Positions 1,503-64,000 of a stretch of 64,000 nucleotides of DNA are shown one piece after another. The position numbers and the translations under genes were made by a program. This stretch comes from Protonemura montana (taxonomy: Eukaryota > Arthropoda > Insecta > Plecoptera > Nemouridae), in the NCBI GenBank assembly GCA_947568835.1, contig OX387612.1, positions 9,734,001 to 9,798,000 on the forward strand. The letters are read 5' to 3'. Every line of letters begins with the position of its first letter. Position 1 is the first letter of the stretch. The notes beneath the pieces were generated by a model. That model was not told the DNA's origin. It saw only the letters and a list, made by a program, of their open reading frames with translations, and did no database searches.

Positions 1503-3570
1503 ACATGTGACTCTGTCCCAGTGCAACTTTCACGTGTTCGACTGGGCATGTGACCCTGTCCCAGTGCAACTTTCACGTGTTCGACTGGGCATGTGACTCT
1601 GTCCCAGTGCAACTTTCACGTGTTCGACTGGGCATGTGACTCTGTTCCAGTGCAACTTTCACGTGTTCGACTGGTCATGTGACTCTGTCCCAGTGCAACT
1701 TTCACGTGTTCGACTGGGCATGTGACTCTGTCCCAGTGCAACTTTCACGTGTTCGACTGGGCATGTGACTCTGTCCCAGTGCAACTTTCACGTGTTCGAC
1801 TGGGCATGTGACTCTGTCCCAGTGCAACTTTCACGTGTTCGACTGGGCATGTGACTCTGTCCCAGTGCAACTTTCAAGTGTTCGACTGGGCATGTGACTC
1901 TGTCCCAGTGCAACTTTCACGTGTTCGACTGGGCATGTGACTCTGTCCCAGTGCAACTTTCACGTGTTCGACTGGGTATGTGACTCTGTCCCAGTGCAAC
2001 TTTCACGTGTTCGACTGGGCATGTGACTCTGTCCCAGTGCAACTTTCACGTGTTCGACTGGGTATGTGACTCTGTCCCAGTGCAACTTTCACGTGTTCGA
2101 CTGGGCATGTGACTCTGTCCCAGTGCAACTTTCACGTGTTCGACTGGGTATGTGACTCTGTCCCAGTGCAACTTTCACGTGTTCGACTGAGCATGTGACT
2201 CTGTCCCAGTGCAACTTTCACGTGTTCGACTGGGCATGTGACTCTGCCCCAGTGCAACTTTCACGTGTTCGACTGGGCATGTGACTCTGTCCCAGTTCAA
2301 CTTTCACGTGTTCGACTGGGCATGTGACTCTGCCCCAGTGCAACTTTCACGTGTTCGACTGGGCATGTGACTCTGTCCCAGTGCAACATTTACGTGTTCG
2401 ACTGGGCATGTGATTCTGCCCCAGTGAAACTTTCACGTGTTCGACTGGGCATGTGACTCTGTCCCAGTGCAATTTTCACGTGTTCGACTGGGCATGTGAC
2501 TCTGTCCCAGTGCAACTTTCACGTGTTCGACTGGGCATGTGACTCTGTCCCAGTGCAACTTTCACGTGTTCGACTGGGCATGTGACTCTGTCCCAGTGCA
2601 ACTTTCACGTGTTCGACTGGGCATGTGAATCTGCCCCAGTGCAACTTTCTCGTGTTCGACTGGGCATGTGACTCTGTCCCAGTGCAACTTTCACGTGTTC
2701 AACTGGGCATGTGACTCTGTCCCAGTGCAACTTTCACGTGTTCGACTGGGCATGTGACTCTGTCCCAGTGCAATTTTCACGTGTTCGACTGGGCATGTGA
2801 CTCTGTCCCAGTGCAACTTTCACGTGTTCGACTGGGCATGTGACTCTGCCCCAGTGCAACTTTCACGTGTTCGACTGGGCATGTGACTCTGTCCCAGTGC
2901 AACTTTCACGTGTTCAACTGGACATGTGACTCTGTCCCAGTGCAACTTTCACGTGTTCGACTGGGCATGTGACTTTGTCCCAGTGCAACTTTCACGTGTT
3001 CGACTGGGCGTGTGACTCTGCCCCAGTGCAACTTTCACGTGTTCGACTGGGCATGTGACTCTGTCCCAGTGCAACTTTCACGTGTTCGACTGGGCATGTG
3101 ACTCTGTCCCAGTGCAACTTTCACGTGTTCGACTGGGCATGTGACTCTGTCCCCGTGCAACTTTCACGTGTTCGACTGGGCATGTGACTCTGCCCCAGTG
3201 CAACTTTCACGTTTTCGACTGGGCATGTGACTCTGCCCCAGTGGAACTTTCACGTGTTCGACTGGGCATGTGACTCTGTCCCAGTGCAACTTTCACGTGT
3301 TCGACTGGGCATGTGACTCTGTCCCAGTGCAACTTTCACGTGTTCGACTGGGCAAGTGACTCTGCTCCAGTGCAACTTTCACGTGTTCGACTGGGCATGT
3401 GACTCTGTCCCAGTGCAACTGTCACGTGTTCGACTGGGCACGTGACTCTGTCCCAGTGCAACTTTCACGTGTTCGACTGGGCATGTGACTTTGCCCCAGT
3501 GCAACTTTCACGTGTTCGACTGGGCATGTGACTCTGTCCCAGTCCAACTTTCACGTGTTCGACTGGCAGA
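1503..3570 (+). repeat. 43-bp minisatellite array, about 48 copies
   Basis: A 43-bp unit repeats head to tail with point variants only. Each unit contains CCCAGT, 18 bases, then ACTGGG (inverted repeat), with the palindrome CACGTG between them. The same unit forms arrays near 16 kb (inverted), 21.2 kb, 31.9 kb and 63.9 kb. Array ORFs on either strand are spurious. Confidence 0.97.
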
Positions 3571-3725
3571 GTTTCTCGCACTCGGGTCACTCCCGGTGCA
3601 TTTTTCTTGCTCCAAGAATTTTGACTTCACAATTGTAAAACAAGTGAATGCACTGACAGCTAGTGGTCACGTGTTCGGGTAGGAGCGCTCTCGCTCGGAA
3701 CTGGTGCAAACTCAGTGGGAATCAG
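3567..3725 (+). repeat. Conserved 3' module following the 43-bp array
   Basis: Directly after the last 43-bp unit comes a non-repetitive block of about 160 bp (GGCAGAGTTTCTCGCACTCG through GGAGCGCTCTCGCTCGG to GGTGCAAACTCAGTGG). The same block follows the arrays ending near 22.70 kb and 34.76 kb, and in reverse near 15.93 kb. It therefore belongs to a mobile unit that carries the minisatellite. GAGCG-CTCT-CGCTC can form a small hairpin. Confidence 0.85.
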
Positions 3726-7821: not shown

Positions 7822-8345
7822 AGAGTTAAGCAACACTGCGCTGGGTCAGGTATTGGATGGGTGACCATCATGCACATGACCAGTTCTGTTCGGGAGAGAG
7901 GTTGGAGGGATGAAAGTTAAGCAACACTGCGCTGGGTCAGGTATTGGATGGGTGACCATCATACACATGACCAGTTCGGTTCAGGAGAGAGATTGGAGGG
8001 ATGAAAGATAAGCAACACTGCGCTGGATCAGGTATTGGATGGGTGACCATCATACACGTGACCAGTTCTGTTCGGGAGAGAGGTTGGAGGGATGAAAGTT
8101 AAGCAACACAGCGCTGGGTCAGGTATTGGATGAGTGACTATCATACACATGACCAGTTCTGTTCGGGAGAGAGGTTGAAGGGATGAAAGTTAGTACAGCA
8201 ACTTCACTCGCCTTGCTTATCAACCTCTCGACAGCATGACTTTGTGGAGGAATCCTGCTGTTCGCGTTGTACCGTCCTTTGGAAGGGACGTTAAGCCGGT
8301 GGTAACGTAAGTCCTCTTCGACAGAAGGAGGGTCGACAGCATACT
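7822..8345 (+). mobile_element. 5S-derived SINE with four tandem heads, 3' truncated
   Basis: Heads with AGTTAAGCAACACTGCGCTG and GGATGGGTGACC recur every 91 bp (first GTATTGGATGG near 7850, next near 7942, and so on). They join the shared body (CTCTCGACAGCATG, GGAAGGGACGTTAAGCCGG) near 8175. The family tail is missing, so the copy ends early. Confidence 0.85.
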
Positions 8346-15715: not shown

Positions 15716-15720
15716 CTTCA

Positions 15721-16306
15721 TGGCGTTTTCGACTGGCTAGCTACAGGGTGGTTCTAGAACTTGCTCGATAACGTCATGCTCTCCATTGGGTTTGCACCAG
15801 ATCCGAGCGAGAGCGCTCCCTACCGAACACGTGATTACTAGCTGTCAGTGCGTTAATTTTTTTTCCAATTGCACCGTCGCAATTCTTGGAGCAATAAATG
15901 TGCACCGGGAGTGACCCGAGAGCGAGCAACTCTGCCAGTTGAACACTTGAAAGCTGCACTGGGACAGAGTCACATGCCCAGTAACACGTGAAAGTTGCAC
16001 TGGGACAGAGTCACATGCCCAGTAGAACACGTGAAAGTTACACTGGGACAGAGTCACAATCCCAGTCGAACACGTGAAATTTGCACTGGGACAGAGTCAC
16101 ATACCCAGTAGAACACGTGAAAGTTACACTGGGACAGAGTCACATGCCCAGTCGATCACGTGAAAGTTGCACTGGGACAGAGTCACATGCCCAGTCGAGC
16201 ACGTGAACGTTGCACTGGAGCAGAGTCACATGCCCAGTGGAACGTGCAGATCGCCCCCAGTGCACACCCGTGTGCCCAGCACGGTGGAAGCCAGTCAAAA
16301 ACGCCA
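15721..16306 (-). mobile_element. TIR element carrying about seven 43-bp units
   Basis: TGGCGTTTTCGACTGGCT (15721-15738) is nearly the reverse complement of AGCCAGTCAAAAACGCCA (16289-16306). Inside, read on the minus strand, are the 43-bp minisatellite (about 15940-16250) and then the conserved 3' module (15936 down to about 15750). There is no coding capacity. The flanks offer only a possible 3-bp duplication (TCA). The element lies 286 bp beyond the VAChT stop codon, so it may be in its 3' UTR or in the surrounding intron. Confidence 0.75.
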
Positions 16307-16591
16307 TCAAATTTTACACCCAGATTCGATCAACGAAGACGAATGATAATAAATTTAACAATGAGTATTACTTTCAATTTGACGGAAACTAAAGCTAACT
16401 TTGCTTTTCTCGTAAAAACTATATATGACAATCTTAACATCAAATTATTCAAAAAATGACCTCTAGCGCTAACAAAACGGGCGAATAATACCCAATAAAC
16501 AAACCGAAACCAACGTCTCGGAAACTTAACAACACATCACCATCTTGCCGCAATACAAAAAAAATTAACAATCATCCCACCGCCCTTCATT

Positions 16592-18322
16592 TTAATACTG
16601 CTGCCGGAATGGATTCTTGTCCACGTTGCTTTCCGCCACTGGCGCTCGAAAGGGATTCGTACCCTGACCCTCTGGCCTCCCAGCCGCTCCACCTCTCTGG
16701 TACGCTTGCCCTTGACTCTGATTATAACCACCTTCCCTGTCATACTCCTGCTGCTGGTACCCCTGCTGCTGGTAGCCATTATCGATATTCGTCTCCTGAA
16801 TCTGAGATATCTGCCCGTCGGGGTACATATTCGTAGTCATCGTTGAGTCCTCGTTAAACTTAGAATACTCCAAATGATTCTTGACCTCGCCGATCACCGG
16901 TTTCTGATCTTGCATTGTGTACGTTTGGTATTCCTTGTCAGGTGGATCAGCCATTAAGATGTTAGCTTCGTTCTGGAACGGCTTGAAGTCATAGATGTCT
17001 CGTAGGTAGTAAAGCACAGGCGCGTACAGGAGGTTGGAAAAGGCGATGCCGAAGTTGAGGGCAGTGAACCCGATGCTTTCGACGACGTTGCCTGCAATAA
17101 TTGGACCGATGGCGTACGCCAAAGAGTACGAGATGTCGGCAATGGCGTAGATGCTACCGTAGACGGACACGTACCGAACGTCGACGAGGTATCCGAGTGT
17201 TGGTAGAAGGGCGGTGTCGATCAATGCGATTCCGAAGCATATCCCGCAGATCGGAATCATCAGCATCTTGTATGAGCTCGAGAACGGAATTAAGAAGCAG
17301 CACATCCCTTCTAACGCCAGTCCTCCAGCGGCCATAATCCACTGGTATTGGGGATACTTTTTAGCCATTTTTACGGTCAGTATCACGCCGAAAACGTGCG
17401 GGAAAAAGGCGGGCAACCAGATCATGCCAATTTTCCAGTTTTCCGTAGTCAAGTTATCTTCCATCCACAGCGATATGGTCGGTTCGAGGAACGCGAGAGC
17501 AACGTTGGACATCATTAGTGCCCCAGCGCAAACTGCGATATACGGATCGATAAACAGCTTCCAGATCGGAATGGTCGGCGCCCGTGGACCTGAATGCTCT
17601 TTGAGCGTTTCTTTGATCGGTTTCATCACTAGCAACAACATGAATCCATCCAGCAGTGAAACAAACGCTAGTATCAAGAATGGCACTTCCTTGCCGGCGA
17701 ATTGGTACAGGGCTCCTCCGAACGGTGGCGCTACAAGACACCCGAAACTGATGAAGGCCAACGCGATCCCCAGTGCTTTGGTACGTTCGTTCTCTTCCGT
17801 GAACCGGTCGGCAATCATCGCGAGACCCGAAGTGTCCGCGAACGCCGACCCGACGCCTTGAAGCGAACGAGCGAAGAAAAGGACCCCGTAGCTACGTCCG
17901 CACGCGAACACCGCCGTACTGAAGAACATGATGGTGAGTCCGATCATCATTGGTATGTCGTAGCCGATGCGGTCAATGAGTGCACCTGAGAACGGGTTTA
18001 CCATGAGCTGGACGATCGCCTTGCTTGCGAATAGGATGCCGGTAGCCGAGTCTTGGCCGTGGTGGTCACGTTTCACGAGGGTTGTCGTTTGATTGGTGCC
18101 TGGTGCTTGTGTAATTATCTCTTGGTCGCCCCACGCGCCGACGTAGCGAAGGTAGTCGGGAATAATCGGGACGATCACCATGTAGAGCATGTTGTCCAGC
18201 AAGAGGGCGATGCTGACGATTACGAGAATCAGTTTGCGTTGCGAGCTCGGTTCCTGTAGTTTGTTCCAGACCCGGTCACGCAGTTCGCCGAACTCCATGT
18301 TGATTATCGGTATCGTCGTCAT
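16592..18322 (-). CDS. VAChT: Vesicular acetylcholine transporter
   Basis: This transporter loads acetylcholine into synaptic vesicles in exchange for protons (SLC18, DHA1 branch of the major facilitator superfamily). The 576-residue frame is intact and uninterrupted, as is usual for insect VAChT. TM1 starts near residue 31 and carries LLLDNMLYMVIVPIIPDYL (Asp43). A lumenal loop follows with an N-glycosylation sequon at 77-79. The MFS loop motif is GALIDRIG at 113-120. TM4 has Asp163 in FADTSGLAMIADR. TM10 has Asp396 in YAIADISYS, matching the aspartate known to matter for acetylcholine binding in mammalian VAChT. The cytoplasmic tail (from about 446) is Gln/Gly/Tyr-rich. The first ATG has a good context (GAAA before it); Met9 is a possible alternative. 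Its base composition is far more GC-rich than the surroundings. In insects it is nested in the first ChAT intron on the same strand, and ChAT itself is not seen here. An antisense ORF of 215 codons at 17214-17861 is a shadow. Confidence 0.97.
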   Translation of the reverse strand: MTTIPIINMEFGELRDRVWNKLQEPSSQRKLILVIVSIALLLDNMLYMVIVPIIPDYLRYVGAWGDQEIITQAPGTNQTTTLVKRDHHGQDSATGILFASKAIVQLMVNPFSGALIDRIGYDIPMMIGLTIMFFSTAVFACGRSYGVLFFARSLQGVGSAFADTSGLAMIADRFTEENERTKALGIALAFISFGCLVAPPFGGALYQFAGKEVPFLILAFVSLLDGFMLLLVMKPIKETLKEHSGPRAPTIPIWKLFIDPYIAVCAGALMMSNVALAFLEPTISLWMEDNLTTENWKIGMIWLPAFFPHVFGVILTVKMAKKYPQYQWIMAAGGLALEGMCCFLIPFSSSYKMLMIPICGICFGIALIDTALLPTLGYLVDVRYVSVYGSIYAIADISYSLAYAIGPIIAGNVVESIGFTALNFGIAFSNLLYAPVLYYLRDIYDFKPFQNEANILMADPPDKEYQTYTMQDQKPVIGEVKNHLEYSKFNEDSTMTTNMYPDGQISQIQETNIDNGYQQQGYQQQEYDREGGYNQSQGQAYQRGGAAGRPEGQGTNPFRAPVAESNVDKNPFRQQY

Positions 18323-21220: not shown

Positions 21221-22906
21221 TGGTAGATTCGACTTGACATGTGACTCTGTCCCAGTGCAACTTTCACGTGTTCGACTGGGCATGTGACTCTGTCCCAGTG
21301 CAACTTTCACGTGTTCGACTGGGCATGTGACTCTGTCCCAGTGCAACTTTCACGTGTTCGACTGGGCATGTGACTCTGCCCCTGTGCAACTTTCACGTGT
21401 TCGACTGGGCATGTGACTCTGTCCCAGTGCAACTTTCACGTGTTCGACTGGGCATGTGACTCTGTCCCAGTGCAACTTTTACGTGTTCGACTGGGCATGT
21501 GACTCTGTCCCAGTGCAACTTTAACGTGTTCGACTGGGCATGTGACTCTGCCCCAGTGCAACTTTCACGTGTTCGACTGGGCATGTGACTCTGCCCCAGT
21601 GCAACTTTCACGTGTTCGACTGGGCATGTGACTCTGTCCCAGTGCAACTTTCACGTGTTCGACTGGGCATGTGTCTCTGTCCCAGTGCAACTTTCACGTG
21701 TTCGACTGGGCATGTGACTCTGCCCCAGTGCAACTTTCACGTGTTCGACTGGGCATGTGACTCTGCCCCAGTGCAACTTTCACGTGTTCGACTGGGCATG
21801 TGACTCTGTCCTAGTGCAACTTTCACGTGTTTGACTGGGCATGTAACTCTGTCCCAGTGCAACTTTCACGTGTTCGACTGGGCATGTGACTCTGTCCCAA
21901 TGTAACTTTCACGTGCTCGACTGGGCATGTAACTCTGTCCCAGTACAACTTTCACGTGTTCGACTGGGCATGTGACTCTGTCCCAATGTAACTTTCACGT
22001 GCTCGACTGGGCATGTAACTCTGTCCCAGTACAACTTTCACGTGTTCGACTGGGCATGTGACTCTGTCCCAATGTAACTTTCACGTGTTCGACTGGGCAT
22101 GTGACTCTGCCCCAGTGCAACTTTCACGTGTTCGACTGGGCATGTAACTCTGTCCCAGTACAACTTTCACTTGTTCGACTGGGCATGTGACTCTGTCCCA
22201 GTGCAACTTTCACGTGTTCGACTGGGCATGTAACTCTGCCCCAGTACAACTTTCACGTGTTCGACTGGGCATGTGACTCTGTCCCAATGTAACTTTCACG
22301 TGTTCGACTGGGCATGTGACTCTGTCCCAGTGCTACTTTCACGTGTTCGACTGGGCATGTGACTCTGTCCCAGTGCAACTTTCACGTGTTCGACTGGGCA
22401 TGTAACTCTGTCCCAGTACAACTTTCACTTGTTCGACTGGGCATGTGACTCTGTCCCAGTGCAACTTTCACGTGTTCGACTGGGCATGTGACTCTGTCCC
22501 AGTGCAACTTTCACGTGTTCGACTGGGCATGTGACTCTGTCCCAGTACAACTTTCACTTGTTCGACTGGGCATGTGACTCTGTCCCAGTGCAACTTTCAC
22601 GTGTTCGACTGGGCATGTGACTCTGTCCCAGTGCAACTTTCACGTGTTCGACTGGGCATGTGACTCTGCCCCAGTGCAACTTTCACGTGCTCGACTGGCA
22701 GAGTTGCTCGCTCTCGGGTCACTCCTGGTGCACTTTTCTTGCTCCAAGAATCAACAGAACAATTGAAAAACAAATTAATGCACTGACAGCTAGTGATCAC
22801 GTGTTCGGGTGGGAGCGCTCTCGCTCGGAGCTGGTGCAAACCCGGTGGAGAGCATGCCGTCACAGAGCATCAAACAAGCCCTGGTGCACGCCAGGTGAAA
22901 ATGCCA
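21221..22906 (+). mobile_element. 43-bp array of about 34 units in a TIR-bounded element
   Basis: The array (about 21240-22695) is followed by the conserved 3' module (22696-22880). The outer edges resemble the inverted ends of the element at 15721-16306: TGGTAGATTCGACTTG at 21221 and GCCAGGTGAAAATGCCA at 22890-22906. The left end is more diverged. Between about 21840 and 22300 the units alternate in two variants (ATGTAACTCTGTCCCAGTAC and ATGTGACTCTGTCCCAATGT), giving an 86-bp higher-order period. Confidence 0.8.
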
Positions 22907-23639: not shown

Positions 23640-24125
23640 ACTAGTCTAATGGCGTCGGGGAATAAGTGGGAGAAAATAAAAAAGCTCGGTGTAGTCACGT
23701 AGCCTACTACTGTTGAAGACCAAGCGGACCACCGGCTTAACGTCCCTTCCGAAGGACGGTACAACACGAACAACAGGATTCCTCCACAAATCCATGCTGT
23801 CGAGAGGTTGATAAGCAAGGCGAGTGAAGTTGTTGTACTTAAATTTCATACCTCTAACCTTTCTCCCAAACAGAACTGGTCGTGTGTATGATGGTCACCA
23901 ATCCAATACCTTACTCAGCGCAGTGTTGCTTAACTTTCATCCCTCCAACCTCCCGAACAGAACTGGTCATGTGTATGATGGTCACCCATCCAATACCTGA
24001 CCCAGCGCAGTGTTGCTAGACTTTCTTCCCTCTAAACTCACTTCCGAACTGAACTGGTCATGTGTATGATGGCCACCCAGCGCAGTGTAGCTTAACTTCA
24101 GTGATCTCACGAGAACCGGTTTTTC
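23640..24125 (-). mobile_element. 5S-derived SINE with about three tandem heads
   Basis: Reverse strand: GATCACTGAAGTTAAGC (5S head start, near 24085-24105) is followed by heads spaced about 91 bp apart with AACACTGCGCTG and GGATGGGTGACC. The body (CATGGATTTGTGGAGGAATC, CCTTCGGAAGGGACG) then leads to the 3' part, truncated near 23640 at the complement of GGCACTAGTCTAATGGCGTC. Confidence 0.85.
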
Positions 24126-28924: not shown

Positions 28925-29445
28925 ACTTTCTCTGAGTCAGGTATTGGATGGGTGATCATCAAACACATGACCAGTTCTGTTCGGGAGAGAGGTTGGAGGG
29001 ATGAAAGTTAAGCAACACCGCGCTGAGTCTGGTATTGGATTGGTGACTATCATACACATGACCAGTTCTGTTCGGGAGAGAGGCTGGAGGGATGAAAGTT
29101 AAGTTACACTGCGCTGAGTCAGGTATTGGATGGATGACCATCATACACATGACCAGTTCTGTTCGGGAGAGAGGTTGGAGGAATGAAAGTTAGTACACCA
29201 ACTTCACTCGCCTTGCTTATCAACCTCTCGACAGCATGGATTTGTGGAGGAATCCTGTTGTTCGCGTTGTACCGTCCTTCGGAAGGGACGTTAAGCCGAT
29301 GGTCCCCTTGGTGCATTTTGACAAAAGTCGGCACCAGGTTTCCTTTTTATTCTAGTTTAGGCTAAGTTCATCGTCATCGACTCATTGACCAACGCCATTA
29401 GACCAGTATCACAGCGCCCGAGTGCGTCGTTAAACACAAGAAATA
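28925..29445 (+). mobile_element. 5S-derived SINE with three tandem heads
   Basis: Heads at about 91-bp spacing (GAGTCAGGTATTGGATGGGT and variants) lead into the shared body at about 29190 and the tail GTGCGTCGTTAAACAC near 29420. The 5' start of the first head is missing. Confidence 0.85.
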
Positions 29446-31612: not shown

Positions 31613-31939
31613 ATCTAAGATGGCTGCCACTGACTCCAATCTTGAACAGCTCTAATAATTCTTTGCTTGCTGCTGTCACTTTGCTGGATTTATATTACCA
31701 GAATCATAACAAACAAAAACAGTTCTGAGATTTAACATGCTTATAGCACGAGGGTGGATAGGTATGTAAAACCATTTATATTTAAATGCAATGTGTGTTT
31801 TGTTTAAACTAAATTTGTGAACTGTACCCCAGTATTTCACCGTCTAGTTTACAAATCAGGGATAAACATGATTACACTACTAGAAACGGACACACGTTAT
31901 AATTAGAAAAAAGTTGGAGAAAGTGCTTCAGTAAAATCT

Positions 31940-34763
31940 CCGTCCCAGTGCAACTTTCACGTGTTCGACTGGGCATGTGACTCTGTCCCAGTGCAACTTT
32001 CACGTGTTCGACTGGGCATGTGACTCTGTCCCAGTGCAACTTTCACGTGTTCGACTGGGCATGTGACTCGATCCCAGTGCAACTTTCACGTGTTCGACTG
32101 GGCATGTGACTCTGTCCCAGTGCAAATTTCACGTGTTCGACTGGGCATGTGACTCTGTCCCAGTGCAACTTTCACGTGTTCGACTGGGCATGTGACTCTG
32201 TCCCAGTGCAACTTTCACGTGTTCGACTGGGCATGTGACTCTGTCCCAGTGCAACTTTCACGTGTTCGACTGGGCATGTGACTCTGTCCCAGTGCAACTT
32301 TCATGTGTTCGACTGGACATGTGACTCTGTCCCAGTGCAACTTTCACGAGTTCGACTGGGCATGTGACTCTGTCCCAGTGCAACTTTCATGTGTTCGACT
32401 GGACATGTGACTCTGTCCCAGTGCAACTTTCACGAGTTCGACTGGGCATGTGACTCTGTCCCAGTGCAACTTTCATGTGTTCGACTGGACATGTGACTCT
32501 GTCCCAGTGCAACTTTCACGTGTTCGACTGGGCATGTGACTCTGTCCTAGTGCAACTTTCACGTGTTTGACTGGGCATGTGACTCTGTCCCAGTGCAACT
32601 TTCACGTGTTCGACTGGGCATGTGACTCTGTCCCAGTGCAACTTTCACGTGTTCGACTGGGCATGTGACTCTGTCCCAGTGCAACTTTCACGTGTTCGAC
32701 TGGGCATGTGACTCTGTCCCAGTGAAACTTTCACGTGTTCGACTGGGCATGTGACTCTGTCCCAGTGCAACTTTCACGTGTTCGACTGGGCATGTGACTC
32801 TGTCCCAGTGCAACTTTCACGTGTTTGACTGGGCATGTGACTCTGCCCCAGTGCAACTTTCACGTGTTCGACTGGGCATGTGACTCTGTCCCAGTGCAAC
32901 TTTCACGTGTTCGACTGGGCATGTGACTCTGTCCCAGTGCAACTTTCACGTGTTCGACTGGGCATGTGACTCTGTCCCAGTGTAACTTTCACGTGTTCGA
33001 CTGGGCATGTGACTCTGCCCCAGTGCAACTTTCACGTGTTCGACTGGACATGTGACTCTGTCCCAGTGCAACTTTCACGAGTTCAACTGGGCATGTGACT
33101 CTGTCCCAGTGCAACTTTCACGTGTTCGACTGGGCATGTGACTCTGTCCCAGTGTAACTTTCACGTGTTCGACTGGGCATGTGACTCTGTCCCAGTGCAA
33201 CTTTCACGTGTTCGACTGGGCATGTGACTCTGTCCCAGTGCAACTTTCACGTGTTCGACTGGGCATGTGACTCTGTCCCAGTGCAACTTTCACGTGTTCG
33301 ACTGGGCATCTGACTCTGTCCCAGTGCAACTTTCACGTGTTCGACTGGACATGTGACTCTGTCCCAGTGCAACTTTCACGTGTTCGACTGGGCATGTGAC
33401 TCTGTCCCAGTGCAACTTTCACGTGTTCGACTGGGCATGTGACTCTGTCCCAGAGCAACTTTCACGTGTTCGACTGGCATGTGACTCTATCCCAGTGCAA
33501 CTTTCACGTGTTCGACTGGGCATGTGATTCTGTCCCAGTGCAACTTTCACGTGTTCGACTGGGCATGTGACTCTGTCCCAGAGCAACTTTCACGTGTTCG
33601 ACTGGGCATGTGACTCTACCCCAGTGCAACTTTCACGTGTTCGACTGAGCATGTGACTCTGCCCCAGTGCAACTTTCACGTGTTCGACTGGGCATGTGAC
33701 TCTGTCCCAGTACAACTTTCACGTGTTCGACTGGGCATGTGACTCTGTCCCAGTGCAACTTTCACGTGTTCAACTGGGCATGTGACTCTGTCCCAGTGCA
33801 ACTTTCACGTGTTCGACTGGGCATGTGACTCTGTCCCAGTGCAACTTTCACGTGTTCGACTGGGCATGTGACTCTGTCCCAGTGCAACTTTCACGTGTTC
33901 GACTGGGCATGTGACTCTGTCCCAGTGCAACTTTCACGTGTTCGACTGGGCATGTGACTCTGTCCCAGTGCAACTTTCACGTGTTCGACTGGGCATGTGA
34001 CTCTGTCCCAGTGCAAATTTCACGTGTTCGACTGGGCATGTGACTCTGTCCCAGTGCAACTTTCACGTGTTCGACTGGGCATGTGACTCTGTCCCAGTGC
34101 AACTTTCACGTGTTCGACTGGGCATGTGACTCTGTCCCAGTGCAACTTTCACGTGTTCGACTGGGCATGTGACTCTGTCCCAGTGCAACTTTCACGTGTT
34201 CGATTGGGCATGTGACTCTGTCCCAGTGCAACTTTCACGTGTGCAACTGGCCATGTGACTCTGCCCCAGTGCAACTTTCACGTGTTTGACTGGGCATCTG
34301 ACTCTGTCCCAGTGCAACTTTCACCTGTTCGACTGGGCATGTGACTCTGTCCCAGTGCAACTTTCACCTGTTCGACTGGGCATGTGACTCTGTCCCAGTG
34401 CAACTTTCACCTGTTCGACTGGGCATGTGACTCTTTCCCAGTGCAACTTTCACGTGTTCGACTGGGCATGTGACTCTGTCCCAGTGCAACTTTCACGTGT
34501 TCGACTGGGCATGTGACTCTGTCCCAGTGCAACTTTCACGTGTTCGACTGGTCATGTGACTTGTCCCAGTGCAACTTTCACGTGTTCGACTGGGCATGTG
34601 ACTCTGTCCCAGTGCAACTTTCACGTGTTCGACTGGGCATGTGACTCTGTCCCAGTGCAACTTTCACGTGTTCGACTGGGCATGTGACTCTGCCCCAGTG
34701 CAACTTTCACGTGTTCGACTGGGCATGTGACTCTGTCCCAGTAGAACTTTCACGTGTTTGAAT
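31940..34763 (+). repeat. 43-bp minisatellite array, about 66 units
   Basis: This is the largest array of the 43-bp family and very homogeneous. Around 32300-32500 a two-unit variant (TCATGTGTTCGACTGGACAT alternating with CACGAGTTCGACTGGGCATG) recurs every 86 bp. Occasional unit length changes occur (one-base losses near 33475 and 34560). There is no identifiable TIR on the left. Confidence 0.97.
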
Positions 34764-34950
34764 GGCAGAGTTGCTAGCTCTCGAGTCACTCCCGGTGCAA
34801 TTTCCTTGCTCCAAGAACTTCGACGGTGCAACTGGAAATCAAATTAATGCCCTGACAGCTAGTGGTCACTTGTTCGGGTGGGAGCGCTCTCGCTCGGAGC
34901 TGGTGCATCCCGGTGGAGAACATGACGTTACCGAGCAAGTTTCAAATTCT
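34764..34950 (+). repeat. Conserved 3' module of the 43-bp element
   Basis: GGCAGAGTTGCTAGCTCTCG through GGGAGCGCTCTCGCTCGG to GAACATGACGTTACCGAGCA matches the modules after the other arrays. The reverse of the last block is present in the 15721-16306 element, so the module extends at least to GAGCAAGTT. No TIR follows. Confidence 0.85.
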
Positions 34951-37111: not shown

Positions 37112-37722
37112 CGTACAGTATGACCAGTTCTGTTCGGGAGAGAGGTTGGAGGGATGAAAGTTAAGCAACACTGCGCTGGGTCAGGTATTGGATGGGTGAC
37201 CATCATACACATGACCAGTTCTGTTCGGGAGAGAGGTTGGAGGGATGAAAGTTAAGCAACACTGCGCTGGGTCAGGTATTGGATGGGTGACCATCATACA
37301 CATGACCAGTTCTGTTCGGGAGAGAGGTTGGAGGGATGAAAGTTTAGCGACACTGCGCTGAGCCAGGTATTGGATGGGTGACCATCATACACATGACCAG
37401 TTCTGTTCGGGAGAGAGATTGGAGGGATGAAAGTTAGTACAGCAAGTTCAATCGCCTTGCTTATCAACCTCTCGACAGCATGGATTTGTGGAGGAATCCT
37501 GTTTTTCGCGTTGTACCGTCCTTCGGAAGGGACGTTAAGCCGGTGATCCCCTTGGTGCTCTTTGACAGGAGTAGACTACGTGCCGGCACCGAGTTTCCCT
37601 CGTTCCTTCTAGTTTAGGTTACATTCGGTATAATTCTTAGAATCACCCATGGATCTAATAAGGGAACCTACTACACTAGTAACGCAGGGTCAGCTGTCAA
37701 AACAGTGCGTCGTTAAACAATG
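37112..37722 (+). mobile_element. 5S-derived SINE with four tandem heads
   Basis: Four head units at 91-bp spacing (GTCAGGTATTGGATGGGTGA and variants) precede the complete body (CATGGATTTGTGGAGGAATC, GGAAGGGACGTTAAGCCGG). The tail is GTGCGTCGTTAAAC near 37705. It is among the most intact multi-head copies. Confidence 0.88.
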
Positions 37723-39240: not shown

Positions 39241-39291
39241 ATTCTGTAGGCAGGGCTAGTACTACACGTTCTTTGGTTCTACCGTTGAGTG

Positions 39292-39801
39292 TAGGTTCTA
39301 GGTAGAGAAACAACGTCAATGTTACAGTCTCTGCGTGTAATATGGCCACCAAATGACTGCCTTACCGACAAAAATGCAGAGTACCGGAACGTCACGTCAA
39401 GTGGAGCCACTGTCGTATGAAATTTAATTTCGATCTTTCTCGTAGGTTACTCGCTCTTTAATATCGTTACGTGTATATCAATCGTTGAGGTAAACATTGA
39501 TGGAGATTTTTTGAGCATGAAAAGTTTCAAAAGCGAGTTAACCTACGAGAAATATCGAAATTAAAATTCATACGACAGTGGCTACACTTAACGTGATGTT
39601 CCGGTACTCTGCATTTTTGTCGGTAAGGTAGTCATTTGGCGGCCATCTTTCACGCAGAGACTGTAACATTAAAGTTCTGCCTCTACCTAGAACCTGCACA
39701 CTCAACGGTTTAACATTAACGTTCTGTCTCTACCTAGAACCTGCACACTCAACGGTTTAACATTAACGTTCTGTCTCTACCTAGAACCTGCACACTCAAC
39801 G
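39292..39801. mobile_element. Long-TIR MITE with triplicated 3' terminus
   Basis: The ends are CCGTTGAGTGTAGGTTCTAG and CTAGAACCTGCACACTCAACG. The arms of about 180 bp are nearly complementary. A 6-bp target duplication GTTCTA flanks the element exactly (39286-39291 and 39802-39807). The last 47 bp of the right arm is present three times (AACATT at 39665, 39712 and 39759). Without the two extra units it would be 416 bp, close to the 413-bp copy at 60872-61284. No ORF is present. Confidence 0.9.
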
Positions 39802-39824
39802 GTTCTATGGACAAGCCTACTTTT

Positions 39825-40932
39825 AGACCTCCATGAGGTCCTAGAGGCAGGTTTAGTTCTAAACCTTCATGAGGTCCTATAGGCAGGTTTAGTTCTAAAC
39901 CACCATGAGGTCCTATAGGCAGGTTAAGTTCTAAACCACCATGAGGTCCTATAGGCAGGTTAAGTTCTAAACCACCATGAGGTCCTATAGGCAGGTTTAG
40001 TTCTAAACCTCCATGAGGTCCTATAGGCAGGTTTAGTTCTAAACCTCCATGAGGTCCTATAGGCAGGTTTAGTTCTAAACCTTCATGAGGTCCTATAGGC
40101 AGGTTTAGTTCTAAACCACCATGAGGTCCTATAGGCAGGTTAAGTTCTAAACCACCATGAGGTCCTATAGGCAGGTTAAGTTCTAAACCACCATGAGGTC
40201 CTATAGGCAGGTTTAGTTCTAAACCTCCATGAGGTCCTATAGGCAGGTTTAGTTCTAAACCTCCATGAGGTCCTATAGGCAGGTTTAGTTCTAAACCACC
40301 ATGAGGTCCTATAGGCAGGTTTAGTTCTAAACCTCCATGAGGTCCTATAGGCAGGTTTAGTTCTAAACCACCATGAGGTCCTATAGGCAGGTTTAGTTCT
40401 AAACCACCATGAGATCCTATAGGCAGGTTTAGTTCTAAACCACCATGAGGTCCTATAGGCAGGTTTAGTTCTAAACCTCCATGAGGTCCTATAGGCAGGT
40501 TTAGTTCTAAACCACCATGAGGTCCTATAGGCAGGTTAAGTTCTAAACCACCATGAGGTCCTATAGGCAGGTTTAGTTCTAAACCACCATGAGGTCCTAT
40601 AGGCAGGTTTAGTTCTAAACCTCCATGAGGTCCTATAGGCAGGTTTAGTTCTAAGCCACCATGAGGTCCTATAGGCAGGTTAAGTTCTAAACCTCCATGA
40701 GGTCCTATAGGCAGGTTTAGTTCTAAACCACCATGAGGTCCTATAGGCAGGTTTAGTTCTAAACCACCATGAGGTGCTATAGGCAGGTTTAGTTCTAAAC
40801 CTCCATGAGGTCCTATAGGCAGGTTTAGTTCTAAACCACCATGAGGTCCTATAGGCAGGTTTAGTTCTAAACCACCATGAGGTGCTATAGGCAGGTTTAG
40901 TTCTAAACAGTCATGAGGTCCTATAGGTAGGT
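39825..40932 (+). repeat. 36-bp minisatellite, about 30 units
   Basis: Units recur every 36 bp (GAGGTCCTAT at 39871 and 39907). Most contain GGTTTAG-TT-CTAAACC, a near-perfect 16-bp palindrome; a minority have GGTTAAG. The array lies just to the right of the MITE at 39292-39801. Confidence 0.97.
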
Positions 40933-40934
40933 CA

Positions 40935-43380
40935 AAACTTCCCTATCACTAGTCACAGGTCACTATCGGTGCAAACACGGTAGTCCGTGTAGCGGATGTG
41001 CAGCTAATAGATTGATGGGCTGATCTAGTCGGGGTTGCCGTCAAGGAGATTAGTTTCCGGCCGTAACGTCCCTCGGGGCTGACGCCTCCCTATCCTGGCC
41101 TCTGGAATGGGATGGGGGGGGGGGGTGAGCGATCACGTCAGCAATTTTACGACACACCTAGAAGTCTCTAGCAACGATTCTACACGGGAGGTCGTCTCAC
41201 AAACATGGTACCAGACGTTATGCAGAGAGTGGAACGTTGGAGGATGAGCGTCAAGTTGACACGTTGACCCTTTTTTAGGAGTGTGTCATTTTTTTTTAAT
41301 TGAGTTTGACAGAATGATTTTTTTTTTGCTGTCATCAAATTAGTTATGGAGTGGTGCCAATTTGCCGTAGATTCCCTAGTTGCTAAAGACTGTACCACTG
41401 TTCTGCAGTCGCCACAGAATCGTTATCTTCTAGCTTCGAGAGCAACTTTGTCTTAGCGAACTTGCTGATAACGACGACAAGTTCGTGGCTTATCGTGTGG
41501 TACTCTCTCTGCACTTTAATGCATCCGTGCACACTTCCGTTTCCGCATCCATTCTTGCACGACGTGCCGACCTAGTTTTACAGGGGAAATAAAGCTGGTC
41601 ATGTGTTTGGTCGTTGGACACTTTTATAAGCATAATATTTTACTGCTACTTTTGAAATGTTTTTTTTTTGTGGACAGTTTCCGTTTCATGTATTTTTTAA
41701 AACTTAAAGTGGTAAAAGATATTAACAACCTACCGTAACATTTTGTTGGTTTAATGTCCGATTCAACGAACATCGAGGTACACTTGATTGAAATTCTGTT
41801 AAAATGTAAAATTCATTTTTACTAATTTTCTGATATTTTTAAAAAATAAAGAAACGAGTTTTGAACAAATACTAAAAAAAAAAAACATGAAAATTGACAT
41901 TCAAATGTTGTCTTTGTTCAATAAGCCACTCTTCTGTCAGTGTTTTTCTTTGTTTTCATCTCCATATAATCTCCATATAAAATTTGAATTCACATCAATG
42001 TTTATTTAAATTTGAATCCGCTGTTTGATATCAAAGAAAATCCTTCCAGAAGTAATCACAAAACATAACATTCTGATGAAAACTTGTAAAGTTTCGCTGA
42101 TCAAAGTAAAAATGAAGCCAAGAGTTAGGATTGGAAGCAATGATTTATTAAGATGTAGTTAATAATATCTTAGAAGCACCGAAGTCAACTGACTCTCCTC
42201 GGGGTCGGAGCCCTTCAGGATCGTCTACCTACCTACCTGCCCCGGTGGAGGGACAGGTAACTAGCTGCACAAAGCGGCGGGATCGTTACAAACTCTATGC
42301 TAACAACTATATTTCTCTCGCTTTACGTGTAAATTGTCAAATTAACTTGCTATTGAATTGAAAAAATATGCCATTGATTTGTAAAATGTCAAATCTTGAT
42401 CCGATTCAGAATTTAAACCTAGTTTAGCCTGATTTTTGTGCAATCGGCTAAAAACGAAAACTTTTCGAGCATTTTTTTTTTTGAAATCTTTGTCAAGTCA
42501 GCAAAAGTAAATGGATTTTTTGACAAAGGGTGCTGGTGAATTTTTACGGGTAAGAAATACAAAAGCAATACATAATTTAGCTGTGTTAAGCAGTGATCAT
42601 TTCTTCTTTGCTCAATCCTGCCCTTTCAGAGTTTGTTTCTTATTTAACACAAAAACATGGCCGCCATCTTGAGTTTGTTTGCGTCAAATCACTTTCGAAC
42701 AGAATTGTTGCTGTTTTCCTGCACCAGTCTAGGAGGCGGTGTGATTTAGCGCAAAACAAATGAAACTTGTGAAAAAATCATCTTCTCTGCTCAGAACTAT
42801 TTCCAAAAAAATTATGACACAGTCGTTCAAAATCAATTTTAAGTTGCCACAAGATATATTTAAATTTACAAGCATCTAGCCACCTTTTAAAGTAGCAGAT
42901 CAGTAGAACACTATGTCTTAAACGGTTATCATTTATCAAATAAGATCTGTATCAGTTTTCAAAATAATTATCAATCTCTTACATCCTAAAAAACACCTAG
43001 ACAACAATAAAAACCATTGAAAACATCTGAACAAGAGAATCGACAAACTTGAAAATGCACGACGAATCGAATCAACGTAGCTCTGACTCAATGAAATATT
43101 CATGCGGCGTAGGTTTGTGAAGGGAGGGATGGGATAGAGAGGTTGGGGGCGGGGAACATGAAGGGGCAGTGCATTTTGTAACCTTTGCAAGCCTAGAGTA
43201 TTGATCCCAGCAACCGCCACCACCACCACGGCATTCTGGAAGCACACCTGCCAAAAAATACACCCCCAATTGACGTCAACAATGCTGTCCCAATATACTA
43301 CCCAGTGGCGGTTTACCTGCGAAATTAGCGTTTTCACTTGTGCTTATGTCGACTTCATTCACCTAGTCACTGGATTTCAC
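40935..43380. other. Gene-free stretch
   Basis: G12 run at 41114-41125, a CCTA microsatellite scrap near 42225-42238, and AT-rich sequence elsewhere. ORFs at 42936-43401 are on both strands, mutually overlapping and unrecognised. Confidence 0.4.
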
Positions 43381-47459: not shown

Positions 47460-50400
47460 TAGCAGAGATAAAGCTTGCACAGATATTCCATCCTTATGAG
47501 GCAAAGACTACCACAGATAAAGCTTTCACAGATATTCCATCCTTATGAGGCAAAGACTAGCACAGATAAAGCTTGCACAGATATTCCATCCTTATGAGTC
47601 AAAGACTACCACAGATAAAGCTTGCACAGATATTCCATCCTTATGAGGCAAAGACTACCACAGATAAAGCTTTCACAGATATTCCATCATTATGAGGCAA
47701 AGACTACCACAGATAAAGCTTTCACAGATATTCCATCCTTATGAGTCAAAGACTACCACAGATAAAGCTTGCACAGATATTCCATCCTTATGAGGCAAAG
47801 ACTACCACAGATAAAGCTTGCACAGATATTCCATCCTTATGAGGCAAAGACTACCACAGATAAAGCTTTCACAGATATTCCATCCTTATGAGGCAAAGAC
47901 TACCACAGATAAAGCTTGCATAGATATTCCATCCTTATGAGGCAAAGACTACCACAGATAAAGCTTACACAGATATCCCATCCTTATGAGGCAAAGACTA
48001 CCACAGATAAAGCTTGCACAGATATTCCATCCTTATGAGGCAAAGACTACCACAGATAAAGCTTACACTGATATTCCATCCTTATGAGGCAAAGACTACC
48101 ACAGATAAAGCTTGCACAGATATTCCATCCTTATGAGGCAAAGACTACCACAGATAAAGCTTGCACAGATATTCCATCCTTATGAGGCAAAGACTACCAC
48201 AGATAAAGCTTGCACAGATATTCCATCCTTATGAGGCAAAGACTACCACAGATAAAGCTTGCACAGATATTCCATCCTTATGAGGCAAAGACTACCACAG
48301 ATAAAGCTTGCACAGATATTCCATCCTTATGAGGCAAAGACTACCACAGATAAAGCTTGCACAGATATTCCATCCTTATGAGGCAAAGACTACCACAGAT
48401 AAAGCTTACACTGATATTCTATCCTTATGAGGCAAAGACTAGCACAGATAAAACTTGCACAGATATTCCATCCTTATGAGGCAAAGACTAGCACAGATAA
48501 AGCTTGCACAGATATTCCATCCTTATGAGGCAAAGACTACCACAGATAAAGCTTGCACAGATATTCCATCCTTATGAGGCAAAGACTACCACAGATAAAG
48601 CTTACACTGATATTCCATCCTTATGAGGCAAAGACTATCACAGATAAGCTTGCACAGATATTCCATCCTTATGAGGCAAAGACTAGCAGAGATAAAGCTT
48701 GCACAGATATTCCATCCTTATGAGGCAAAGACTACCACAGATAAAGCTTGCACAGATATTCCATCCTTATGAGGCAAAGACTACCACAGATAAAGCTTAC
48801 ACTGATATTCCATCCTTATGAGGCAAAGACTATCACAGATAAGCTTGCACAGATATTCCATCCTTATGAGGCAAAGACTAGCAGAGATAAAGCTTGCACA
48901 GATATTCCATCCTTATGAGGCAAAGACTAGCAGAGATAAAGCTTGCACAGATATTCCATCCTTATGAGGCAAAGACTATCACAGATAAAGCTTGCACAGA
49001 TATTCCATCCTTATGAGGCAAAGACTACCACAGATAAAGCTTGCACAGATATTCCATCCTTATGAGGCAAAGACTACCACAGATAAAGCTTACACTGATA
49101 TTCCATCCTTATGAGGCAAAGACTATCACAGATAAGCTTGCACAGATATTCCATCCTTATGAGGCAAAGACTAGCAGAGATAAAGCTTGCACAGATATTC
49201 CATCCTTATGAGGCAAAGACTAGCAGAGATAAAGCTTGCACAGATATTCCATCCTTATGAGGCAAAGACTATCACAGATAAGCTTGCACAGATATTCCAT
49301 CCTTATGAGGCAAAGACTAGCAGAGATAAAGCTTGCACAGATATTCCATCCTTATGAGGCAAAGACTAGCAGAGATAAAGCTTGCACAGATATTCCATCC
49401 TTACGGAGCAAAGACTAGCACAGATAAAGCTTGCACAGATATTCCATCCTTATGAGGCAAAGGCTACCACAGATAAAGCTTGCACAGATATTCCATCCTT
49501 ATGAGGCAAAGACTATCACAGATAAAGCTTGCACAGATATTCCATCCTTATGAGGCAAAGACTACCACAGATAAAGCTTGCACAGATATTCCATCCTTAT
49601 GAGGCAAAGACTACCACAGATAAAGCTTACACTGATATTCCATCCTTATGAGGCAAAGACTATCACAGATAAGCTTGCACAGATATTCCATCCTTATGAG
49701 GCAAAGACTAGCAGAGATAAAGCTTGCACAGATATTCCATCCTTATGAGGCAAAGACTAGCAGAGATAAAGCTTGCACAGATATTCCATCCTTATGAGGC
49801 AAAGACTATCACAGATAAGCTTGCACAGATATTCCATCCTTATGAGGCAAAGACTAGCAGAGATAAAGCTTGCACAGATATTCCATCCTTATGAGGCAAA
49901 GACTAGCAGAGATAAAGCTTGCACAGATATTCCATCCTTACGGAGCAAAGACTAGCACAGATAAAGCTTGCACAGATATTCCATCCTTATGAGGCAAAGG
50001 CTACCACAGATAAAGCTTGCACAGATATTCCATCCTTATGAGGCAAAGACTATCACAGATAAAGCTTGCACAGATATTCCATCCTTATGAGGCAAAGACT
50101 AGCACAGATAAAGCTTGCACAGATATTCCATCCTTATGAGGCAAAGGCTACCACAGATAAAGCTTGCACAGATATTCCATCCTTATGAGGCAAAGACTAT
50201 CACAGATAAAGCTTGCACAGATATTCCATCCTTATGAGGCAAAGACTACCACAGATAAAGCTTGCACAGATATTCCATCCTTATGAGGCAAAGACTACCA
50301 CAGATAAAGCTTTCACAGATATTCCATCCTTATGAGGCAAAGACTACCACAGATAAAGCTTACACAGATATTCCATCCTTATGAGGCAAAGACTACCACA

Positions 50401-53400
50401 GATAAAGCTTGTACAGATATTCCATCCTTATGAGGCAAAGACTACCACAGATAAAGCTTCCACTGATATTCCATCCTTATGAGGCAAAGACTACCACAGA
50501 TAAAGCTTGCATAGATATTCCATCCTTATGGGGCAAAGACTACCACAGATAAAGCTTACACAGATATTCCATCCTTATGAGGCAAAGACTACCACAGATA
50601 AAGCTTGCACAGATATTCCATCCTTATGAGGCAAAGACTACCACAGATAAAGCTTGCACAGACATTCCATCCTTTTGAGGCAAAGACTACCACAGATAAA
50701 GCTTACACAGATATTCCATCCTTATGAGGCAAAGACTACCACAGATAAAGCTTGCACAGATATTCCATCCTTATGAGGCAAAGACTACCACAGATAAAGC
50801 TTTCACAGATATTCCATCCTTATGAGGCAAAGACTACCACAGATAAAGCTTACACAGATATTCCATCCTTATGAGGCAAAGACTACCACAGATAAAGCTT
50901 GTACAGATATTCCATCCTTATGAGGCAAAGACTACCACAGATAAAGCTTCCACTGATATTCCATCCTTATGAGGCAAAGACTACCACAGATAAAGCTTGC
51001 ATAGATATTCCATCCTTATGAGGCAAAGACTAGCACCGATAAAGCTTACACAGATATTCCATCCTTATGAGGCAAAGACTACCACAGATAAAGCTTGCAT
51101 AGATATTCCATCCTTATGAGGCAAAGACTACCACAGATAAAGCTTACACAGATATTCCATCCTTATGAGGCAAAGACTACCACAGATAAAGCTTGCATAG
51201 ATATTCCATCCTTATGAGGCAAAGACTAGCACCGATAAAGCTTACACAGATATTCCATCCTTATGAGGCAAAGACTACCACAGATAAAGCTTGCATAGAT
51301 ATTCCATCCTTATGAGGCAAAGACTACCACAGATAAAGCTTGCACAGATATTCCATCCTTATGAGGCAAAGACTACCACAGATAAAGCTTGCATAGATAT
51401 TCCATCCTTATGAGGCAAAGACTAGCACCGATAAAGCTTACACAGATATTCCATCCTTATGAGGCAAAGACTACCACAGATAAAGCTTGCATAGATATTC
51501 CATCCTTATGAGGCAAAGACTACCACAGATAAAGCTTACACAGATATTCCATCCTTATGAGGCAAAGACTACCACAGATAAAGCTTGCATAGATATTCCA
51601 TCCTTATGAGGCAAAGACTAGCACCGATAAAGCTTACACAGATATTCCATCCTTATGAGGCAAAGACTACCACAGATAAAGCTTGCATAGATATTCCATC
51701 CTTATGAGGCAAAGACTACCACAGATAAAGCTTGCACAGATATTCCATCCTTATGAGGCAAAGACTAGCACCGATAAAGCTTACACAGATATTCCATCCT
51801 TATGAGGCAAAGACTACCACAGATAAAGCTTGCATAGATATTCCATCCTTATGAGGCAAAGACTACCACAGATAAAGCTTGCATAGATATTCCATCCTTA
51901 TGAGGCAAAGACTAGCACAGATAAAGCTTGCACAGATATTCCATCCTTATGAGGCAAAGACTAGCAGAGATAAAGCTTGCACAGATATTCCATCCTTATG
52001 AGGCAAAGACTAGCACAGATAAAGCTTGCATAGATATTCCATCCTTATGAGGCAAAGACTAGCACAGATAAAGCTTGCATAGATATTCCATCCTTATGAG
52101 GCAAAGACTAGCAGAGATAAAGCTTGCACAGATATTCCATCCTTATGAGGCAAAGACTAGCAGAGATAAAGCTTGCACAGATATTCCATCCTTATGAGGC
52201 AAAGACTAGCACAGATAAAGCTTGCATAGATATTCCATCCTTATGAGGCAAAGACTAGCACAGATAAAGCTAGCATAGATATCCCATCCTTATGAGGCAA
52301 AGACTAGCAGAGATAAAGCTTGCACAGATATTCCATCCTTATGAGGCAAAGACTAGCAGAGATAAAGCTTGCACAGATATTCCATCCTTATGAGGCAAAG
52401 ACTAGCAGAGATAAAGCTTGCACAGATATTACATCCTTGTGGGGCAAAGACTACCACAGATAAAGCTTGCACAGATAATCCATCCTTATGGGGCAAAGAC
52501 TAGCAGAGATAAAGCTTGCACAGATATTACATCCTTGTGGGGCAAAGACTACCACAGATAAAGCTTGCACAGATATTCCATCCTTTTGAGGCAAAGGCTA
52601 GCACAGATAAAGCTTGCATAGATATTCCATCCTTATGAGGCAAAGACTAGCAGAGATAAAGCTTGCACAGATATTCCATCCTTATGAGGCAAAGACTAGC
52701 AGAGATAAAGCTTGCACAGATATTCCATCCTTATGAGGCAAAGACTAGCAGAGATAAAGCTTGCACAGATATTACATCCTTGTGGGGCAAAGACTACCAC
52801 AGATAAAGCTTGCACAGATAATCCATCCTTATGGGGCAAAGACTAGCACATATAAAGCTTGCACAGATATTCCATCCTTATGAGGCAAAGACTAGCAGAG
52901 ATAAAGCTTCCACTGATATTCCATCCTTATGAGGCAAAGACTACCACAGATAAAGCTTGCACAGATATTCCATCCTTATGAGGCAAAGACTAGCAGAGAT
53001 AAAGCTTCCACTGATATTCCATCCTTATGAGGCAAAGACTACCACAGATAAAGCTTCCACTGATATTCCATCCTTATGAGGCAAAGACTAGCACAGATAA
53101 AGCTTGCACAGATATTCCATCCTTATGAGGCAAAGGCTACCACAGATAAAGCTTGCACAGATATTCCATCCTTATGAGGCAAAGGCTACCACAGATAAAG
53201 CTTGCACAGATATTCCATCCTTATGAGGCAAAGAATACCACAGATAAAGCTTGCACAGATATTCCATCCTTATGAGGCAAAGACTAGCACGGATAAAGCT
53301 TGCATAGATATTCCATCCTTATGAGGCAAAGACTAGCAGAGATAAAGCTTGCACAGATATTCCATCCTTATGAGGCAAAGACTACCACAGATAAAGCTTG

Positions 53401-63906: not shown

Positions 63907-64000
63907 TCGTTGCAACTTTCACGTGTTCAACTGGGCGTGTGACTCTGTCCCAGTGCAACTTTCACGTTTTCGACTGGGCATGTGACTCTGTCCCAGTGCA
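63907..64000 (+). repeat. 43-bp minisatellite, start of a further array
   Basis: Just over two units (GTTGCAACTTTCACGTGTTC onwards) run off the right edge of the window. No TIR was recognised on its left. Confidence 0.9.

Follow-up and report, generated by a model that had tools for sequence, protein, structure and literature searches.

Tandem-repeat-bearing MITEs (TR-MITEs) are known from clams and oysters. In Xenopus, the MITEs miDNA4 and Xstir are presented as carrying inner tandem arrays, miDNA4 being described as Tc1/mariner, and the termite terMITEs are also named among the tandem-repeat MITEs through a reference in the same account (PMC12628747). Tetris, a foldback element of Drosophila virilis, is described as containing ~220-bp tandem repeats inside its TIRs (PMC4079207), and the Helentron HINEs of Crassostrea gigas are reported to occupy TT targets with no duplication and with no chromosome preference seen in that account (PMC7492417). 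The coral CMITEs are given as ~100-bp elements of the piggyBac type with TTAA duplications (PMC2872659), and a minisatellite inside a MITE is reported for Porphyromonas gingivalis (PMC4596501). As regards the target site, PIF/Harbinger elements duplicate TWA, NuwaII elements have C|TNA|G and ISL2EU elements AT, according to PMC4482050, where the TIR is said to start with GG in most NuwaII and usually with A or G in PIF/Harbinger. MITEs with inner tandem arrays have thus already been described; the TIR-bearing, array-carrying family that we report here is a new one, and it is not described in the literature on tandem-array MITEs, PHIS/Harbinger and minisatellites covered by our search, which left subscription journals mostly outside.

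The family was recognised from a 43-bp minisatellite located at 15.7 kb in a window of 64 kb (C15:9734001-9798000), this being the whole stretch of DNA that was analysed, and was then followed through the 258-Mb assembly, which consists of 34 contigs, at least 11 of them longer than 12.9 Mb. We propose, with a probability of roughly 0.75, that the minisatellite is part of a MITE-like family of non-autonomous cut-and-paste DNA transposons, mobilised in trans by a transposase most likely of the PHIS superfamily. The family shows a layout formed by a 17-bp TIR, a left module of ~214 bp, an array of 43-bp units that is variable in length, a right module of ~70 bp and a second TIR (Table 1). The copy at 15.7 kb starts with the bases TGGCG and finishes with CGCCA exactly at its bounds, its right-hand end sequence being GCCAGTCAAAAACGCCA. 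The preliminary description had assigned near-perfect inverted ends of 18 bp to this element; the near-perfect ends stand, since 18/19 positions agree when the base next to the TIR on each side is included, and the TIR itself measures 17 bp. In the scan of the 64-kb window, none of the stop-to-stop frames that reach 130 aa overlaps this copy, a result that refers to this copy only. The element lies 286 bp from the stop of the VAChT coding sequence. It had been suggested that the copy could be situated in the 3' UTR of this gene, which it may be; neither AATAAA nor ATTAAA is found between the stop and the element. No role of the element for the VAChT gene is supported, and an array placed beside such a gene calls for caution against its reading as a gene-regulatory repeat without transcript data.

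Table 1. Features of the complete element, of its neighbouring gene and of the other family copies in the window.
Feature	Positions	Strand	Remarks
Complete element, TIR to TIR	15721..16306	+	586 bp
Left copy of the 3-bp target duplication	15718..15720	.	TCA
Right copy of the 3-bp target duplication	16307..16309	.	TCA
Left TIR	15721..15737	+	TGGCGTTTTCGACTGGC; fits pattern TGGCGTNTTCGACTGGC
Left module	15721..15934	+	~214 bp; relatives genome-wide; consensus from 46 full modules
43-bp array	15935..16243	+	7.2 units; one unit within 3 mismatches of the TIR pattern
Right module	16234..16306	+	~70 bp; after last unit, at the phase of most copies keeping it
Right TIR	16290..16306	-	1 mismatch
VAChT coding sequence	16592..18322	-	single open frame, 576-aa ORF; best hits are PDB VAChT chains, E 1.5e-157; MFS_1
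Second copy, degraded TIRs	21221..22906	-	~34 units, array at 21228-22698; right module missing
One-sided copy	1504..3719	-	~48 units, array at 1504-3566; left module truncated near its base 63; right module absent
One-sided copy	31938..34946	-	~64-66 units, array at 31938-34765; left module truncated near its base 38; right module absent
Start of one-sided copy (L075)	63911..64000	-	~12 units overall, array at 63911-64000; left module cut at about base 24

The exact TIR pattern TGGCGTNTTCGACTGGC was found 72 times in the genome, left and right ends pooled, and not once with the reversed-pattern control, and 666 times against 16 in the control when up to 2 mismatches were allowed, so the inverted ends are not a product of chance. 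In the search with the left module, the 40 matches scored out of 658 candidates comprise the module itself and 39 relatives at 83-89%, and the right module gave 30 matches, itself included. Loci L001-L068 supply 39 left and 33 right ends, all distinct, that begin at one module position, in a count that allows up to 4/17 mismatches and leaves out ends that are more decayed or missing; of 61 distinct left modules, 31 have an alignment that starts no later than base 4. It had been stated beforehand that the inverted ends would be coincidental if the flanks of other copies showed no consistent ends at the same distance from the module. Such ends are borne out in the other copies, and since they begin at the same place in distant copies the coincidence foreseen there is not what the genome contains. 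An ordinary minisatellite with inverted ends by accident, for which the three window copies without intact ends might be quoted, is therefore a practically negligible explanation in the face of dozens of copies with consistent ends and of an empty control for the exact TIR.

The copies do not have the uniform small size of a simple MITE series, because the length of the array varies: two-ended copies measure from 116 to ~1,690 bp and one-sided copies up to ~3 kb, with 0 to ~40 units per copy in the fetched loci and up to ~66 in the window. Among the 28 distinct copies found via the left module alone, the right module is at least partly kept in 16 and absent in 12, and most of the copies that keep it have it joined to the last unit in one common phase.

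The preliminary description had named target duplications as a check on its proposal, and analysis of the sequences flanking 43 end pairs speaks in favour of a 3-bp duplication. In the 3-bp register 78/129 positions agree against 67.0 expected under random re-pairing (p=0.005) and perfect flank triplets are present in 9/43 pairs against 5.1 expected (p=0.044); the 2-, 4- and 5-bp registers of the same 43 pairs give no excess (p=0.87, 0.60 and 0.997, respectively). These pairs are formed by a subset of 39, in which 72/117 positions agree (p=0.0013), and by the addition of L013, L017, L062 and L056. In the 39-pair subset, agreement is seen at the middle base in 25 pairs where 14.2 are expected (z 3.9) and at the inner base in 29 where 24.2 are expected. 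There is no excess at the outer base, which pairs -3 with +1, as 18 pairs agree where 21.6 are expected (z -2.0); the signal therefore rests on the middle and inner bases. A short 3-bp target duplication is thus supported, in a statistical manner and not cleanly in every copy, some copies with perfect TIRs having unlike flanks (L010, L012). A 2-bp AT duplication of the ISL2EU kind, which goes with a TIR starting GG, was considered and rejected, since it would not give an agreement of the middle base across the two sides beyond chance. The composition of the flanks in the 43 pairs (on the left, C at -4 in 24, T at -3 in 30 and A at -1 in 35; on the right, T at +1 in 34, A at +3 in 31 and G at +4 in 21) leads to a consensus that is palindromic, with C-T-W-A ahead of the element and T-W-A-G behind it, that is, to a target C|TWA|G. 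No empty site was found with the 12 joined flank pairs searched: 11 of the 20 prepared returned just self matches and short one-flank hits, and one further pair matched only a locally duplicated block of C14, in which the copies seen on both sides also seem to bear an insert.

The C|TWA|G target with its 3-bp duplication points to the PHIS superfamily rather than to Helentrons. A non-autonomous Helentron with tandem repeats at its core, of HINE, DINE or pearl type and dispersed by rolling-circle transposition, would share the layout of two modules flanking tandem repeats, and one-sided arrays are known there too according to the accounts in PMC12628747 and PMC7492417. We nevertheless consider it very unlikely, because our family has 17-bp TIRs at both outer ends together with the 3-bp register, because its target is C|TWA|G and not TT, and because the fold of the right-module consensus is not superior to that of shuffled versions (z 0.60), with no sign of a 3' hairpin. 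The likeness to tandem-core elements of molluscs and flies that had been pointed out at the start holds, as far as the accounts considered here go, for the anatomy only: the oyster elements are, in the description of PMC7492417, Helentrons without a target duplication, whereas the present family has TIRs and a 3-bp duplication.

From the target alone, mobilisation by a PHIS transposase, either PIF/Harbinger or NuwaII-like, is the most likely reading. The genome contains at least 154 DDE_Tnp_4 matches; none of the 150 listed matches is situated within 10 kb of the 102 TIR sites listed among the 666 that exist, and none of seven transposase loci (L092-L098, 4.0-5.4 kb each) has the TIR TGGCGTWTTCGACTGGC as an end. 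A PHIS transposase with the same TIR was rejected as a candidate at these seven loci; the only TIR-like word that two of them share (4 mismatches) sits within homologous sequence and is not terminal. Furthermore, 59/72 exact TIRs lie in the central half of the chromosomes, and of the 149 PHIS-type transposase matches listed for large contigs 115 occupy the outer quarters, and this separation of the exact TIRs in mid-chromosome from the listed DDE_Tnp_4 matches towards the ends counts against a PHIS partner. The same kind of element could thus be moved by a cut-and-paste transposase from outside PHIS that also gives a 3-bp duplication, an option favoured by the lack of a partner near the listed PF13359 matches and at the seven fetched loci and by a TIR that starts with TGG rather than GG. 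We regard such a mover as unlikely, if by no means negligible, given that the palindromic C|TWA|G target and the 3-bp register match the published PHIS groups. As a separate observation on these transposases, seven DDE_Tnp_4 matches spaced ~13 kb apart at C14:1568765-1646925 form a tandemly duplicated, transposase-holding block.

In the window, the four other arrays are all opposite in orientation to the 15.7-kb copy and all contain left module sequence, and the five arrays are all members of the family, one being intact, one having degraded ends and three being one-sided. The second array had been said to have ends related to those of the first, which is confirmed in a degraded form: TIRs of this kind are found at 21221 and at 22890-22906, the left module reaches its TIR and the right TIR is fused directly to the array, in register. 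In the three one-sided copies the end of the array abuts unrelated sequence, and the array at 63.9 kb continues beyond the end of the window. The arrays at 1.5, 31.9 and 63.9 kb had been described as apparently made of this unit but lacking intact ends. They are indeed one-sided, and as truncated members of the family they are not bare, each of them keeping part of the left module. Likewise, the conserved 3' module of the preliminary description is a module common to the window copies, and in the orientation of the element it corresponds to the left module, whose position 3' of the array is peculiar to the copies on the minus strand; the 15.7-kb array is followed by a right module that is shorter and different. 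The central proposal, that a mobile element with inverted ends accounts for one minisatellite at five sites and in both orientations, is supported by the fixed ends and by the target duplication.

The one-sided copies are most likely products of deletion or of aborted repair. Their arrays might otherwise have spread by ectopic recombination or through extrachromosomal circles, and not by transposition followed by truncation, and the absence of the right module from 12/28 of the copies found via the left module and from all four other window arrays fits such a route. We find it improbable, since the one-sided copies keep the left module at the normal junction and since the arrays show little sharing of variants: in the 36 arrays compared it is low, 4.9% within arrays against 1.7% between them. 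All 36 arrays contain both forms of a G/A dimorphism, and at the remaining scored sites none of them (0/36) has a fixed variant of its own.

The most distinctive trait of the family is a TIR-like word in the array unit. The 43-bp consensus unit contains a word that matches the TIR at 13/17 bases in the right-end orientation, with TTCGACTGG identical, a degree of likeness reached by 0.2% of shuffled units (P=0.002). It is possible to see the same feature in the window as a whole, where 126 words lie within 3 mismatches of the TIR pattern against 0.1 expected, 3 of them being TIRs and 123 being located in arrays in the right-TIR orientation. Altogether 153 units were counted in the window and ~30 are beyond this limit, including most of those in the 15.7-kb copy, of which just one is within 3 mismatches. 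The worn TIR core and its right-end orientation suggest that tandem duplication of the segment adjoining the right TIR probably gave rise to the array, and growth from the sequence beside the right end is the simplest reading, even though the unit-TIR likeness could be a convergence.

A different origin, in which a pre-existing satellite was captured by the element and not derived from its end, is the model published for the Xenopus MITE miDNA4 in the account of PMC12628747, and it would agree with the partial character of the likeness, 13/17. It is harder to reconcile with the rarity of such a likeness among shuffled units, with the reappearance of the TIR-like word at the junction between left module and array (3551-3567, 2 mismatches) and with the preservation of both modules in short copies that have almost no array, and we therefore hold this capture to be possible and on the whole doubtful. 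With growth from the right end as the preferred reading, the 43-bp unit may represent a spare, worn and putative transposase-binding site, so that a copy would have up to ~66 sub-terminal sites; this is a speculative suggestion and rather unlikely to be correct. Were it true, the length of the array could tune the competition for, or the titration of, a shared transposase, and the many 43-bp arrays of the genome would be a by-product of the contest for this enzyme.

The sharing of variants between left modules is scarcely above chance, with a variance of 0.579 against 0.525 +- 0.027 in permutations and 3 pairs with four or more variants in common against 2.0, as expected if the copies spread from a few sources and then decayed apart. 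At non-CpG sites of 36 elements the units diverge by 2.4% and the left module by 5.9%, the unit being lower in 33/36. We do not claim from this that the array evolves more slowly than the module, given that stretches of 43 columns of the module themselves range from 3.1% to 8.9%, that the loci were chosen by similarity and that polishing of the assembly is possible; the ~2.5-fold lower divergence of the array could be caused by the selection of loci or by polishing of repeats in the assembly. The right module diverges by 9.2% in 11 loci chosen via the left module and by 3.6% in 9 others.

The distribution among chromosomes is uneven. Exact TIRs are concentrated on the smallest of the large chromosomes: C14 (13.1 Mb) has 20 and C15 (13.0 Mb) has 15, and at the other extreme C1, with 33.1 Mb, has 2 and C16, with 29.6 Mb, has 0. 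An exact match to a 29-base core of the unit is present 4,563 times in the genome and absent from the controls; of the first 100 cores listed in contig order, 77 are on C2, one is on C3 and none is on C1, so that, as judged from these first 100, the array-bearing copies look chromosome-specific.

Several other repeats were observed alongside the family. A 91-bp tandem unit is present in the window at 7824-8192, 23840-24079, 28932-29192 and 37120-37436, and the unit or its surroundings recur in the DDE_Tnp_4 loci L092, L093 and L098. This unit presumably resembles part of 5S rRNA; an Rfam search of the window, the 91-bp unit included, gave nothing at the gathering threshold. A repeat of ~420 bp, partly self-complementary, is found at 39281-39714 and 60871-61290 and also beside the transposase in L094, the second copy being present in L098 as well. 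The window also contains a 10.3-kb array of 211 copies of a 49-bp unit at 47466-57807 and tandem arrays with further periods of 36, 43, 54, 86, 91, 92 and 114 bp, of which the 36-bp array on the minus strand at 39749-40942 can be read through as a frame of 397 aa with 12-residue repeats (GPHGGLELNLPI), without implying a gene. Outside the window, COX1 matches of equal score were observed at C4:5760925-5762262 and on the small contig C34:3504-4841, a pair explained either by mitochondrial DNA that entered the nuclear genome very recently or by a join made in assembly. The mitochondrial genes, named from their translations, follow the order ND2-COX1-COX2-ATP8-ATP6 and are read under code 5 with TGA as Trp; this order is arthropod-like.

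In the mechanism that we propose, a transposase supplied in trans, most likely from the PHIS superfamily, would move the copies and the array would travel inside the element, which would account for one minisatellite at many sites and in both orientations. What appeared as scattered minisatellites beside genes thereby becomes one explained transposon family of genome-wide extent, and the family offers a concrete case in which satellite-like DNA may grow from, and be dispersed by, DNA transposons.

In comparison with known systems, the family resembles PIF/Harbinger and NuwaII in its 3-bp duplication within C|TWA|G, in a short TIR within the published range of lengths and in the presence of DDE_Tnp_4 transposases in this genome. 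It differs from PIF/Harbinger and NuwaII in a TIR that starts with TGG, in having no coding sequence and no partner found with the same TIR, and in carrying a tandem array. With the HINEs, as these are described in PMC7492417, it shares modular flanks, a central tandem core and the occurrence of both orientations, whereas its strong chromosome bias sets it apart from them. The coral CMITEs are similar in that their inner region is reported to be more conserved than the ends (PMC2872659), and differ in that their arrays, in that report, are made of whole elements and not of an inner unit, and the bacterial element of P. gingivalis has, from its description, just the minisatellite inside a MITE in common with our family. 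Tetris, according to its published account, likewise has tandem repeats that are tied to the TIRs and grow into longer arrays, but in our family the 43-bp units are placed between two unlike modules. With the tandem-repeat MITEs the family shares a short non-autonomous structure, inverted ends and a variable inner array able to seed satellite-like arrays, and it is distinguished from miDNA4, insofar as this is described as Tc1/mariner, by the 3-bp duplication in C|TWA|G and by a unit that contains a TIR-like word.
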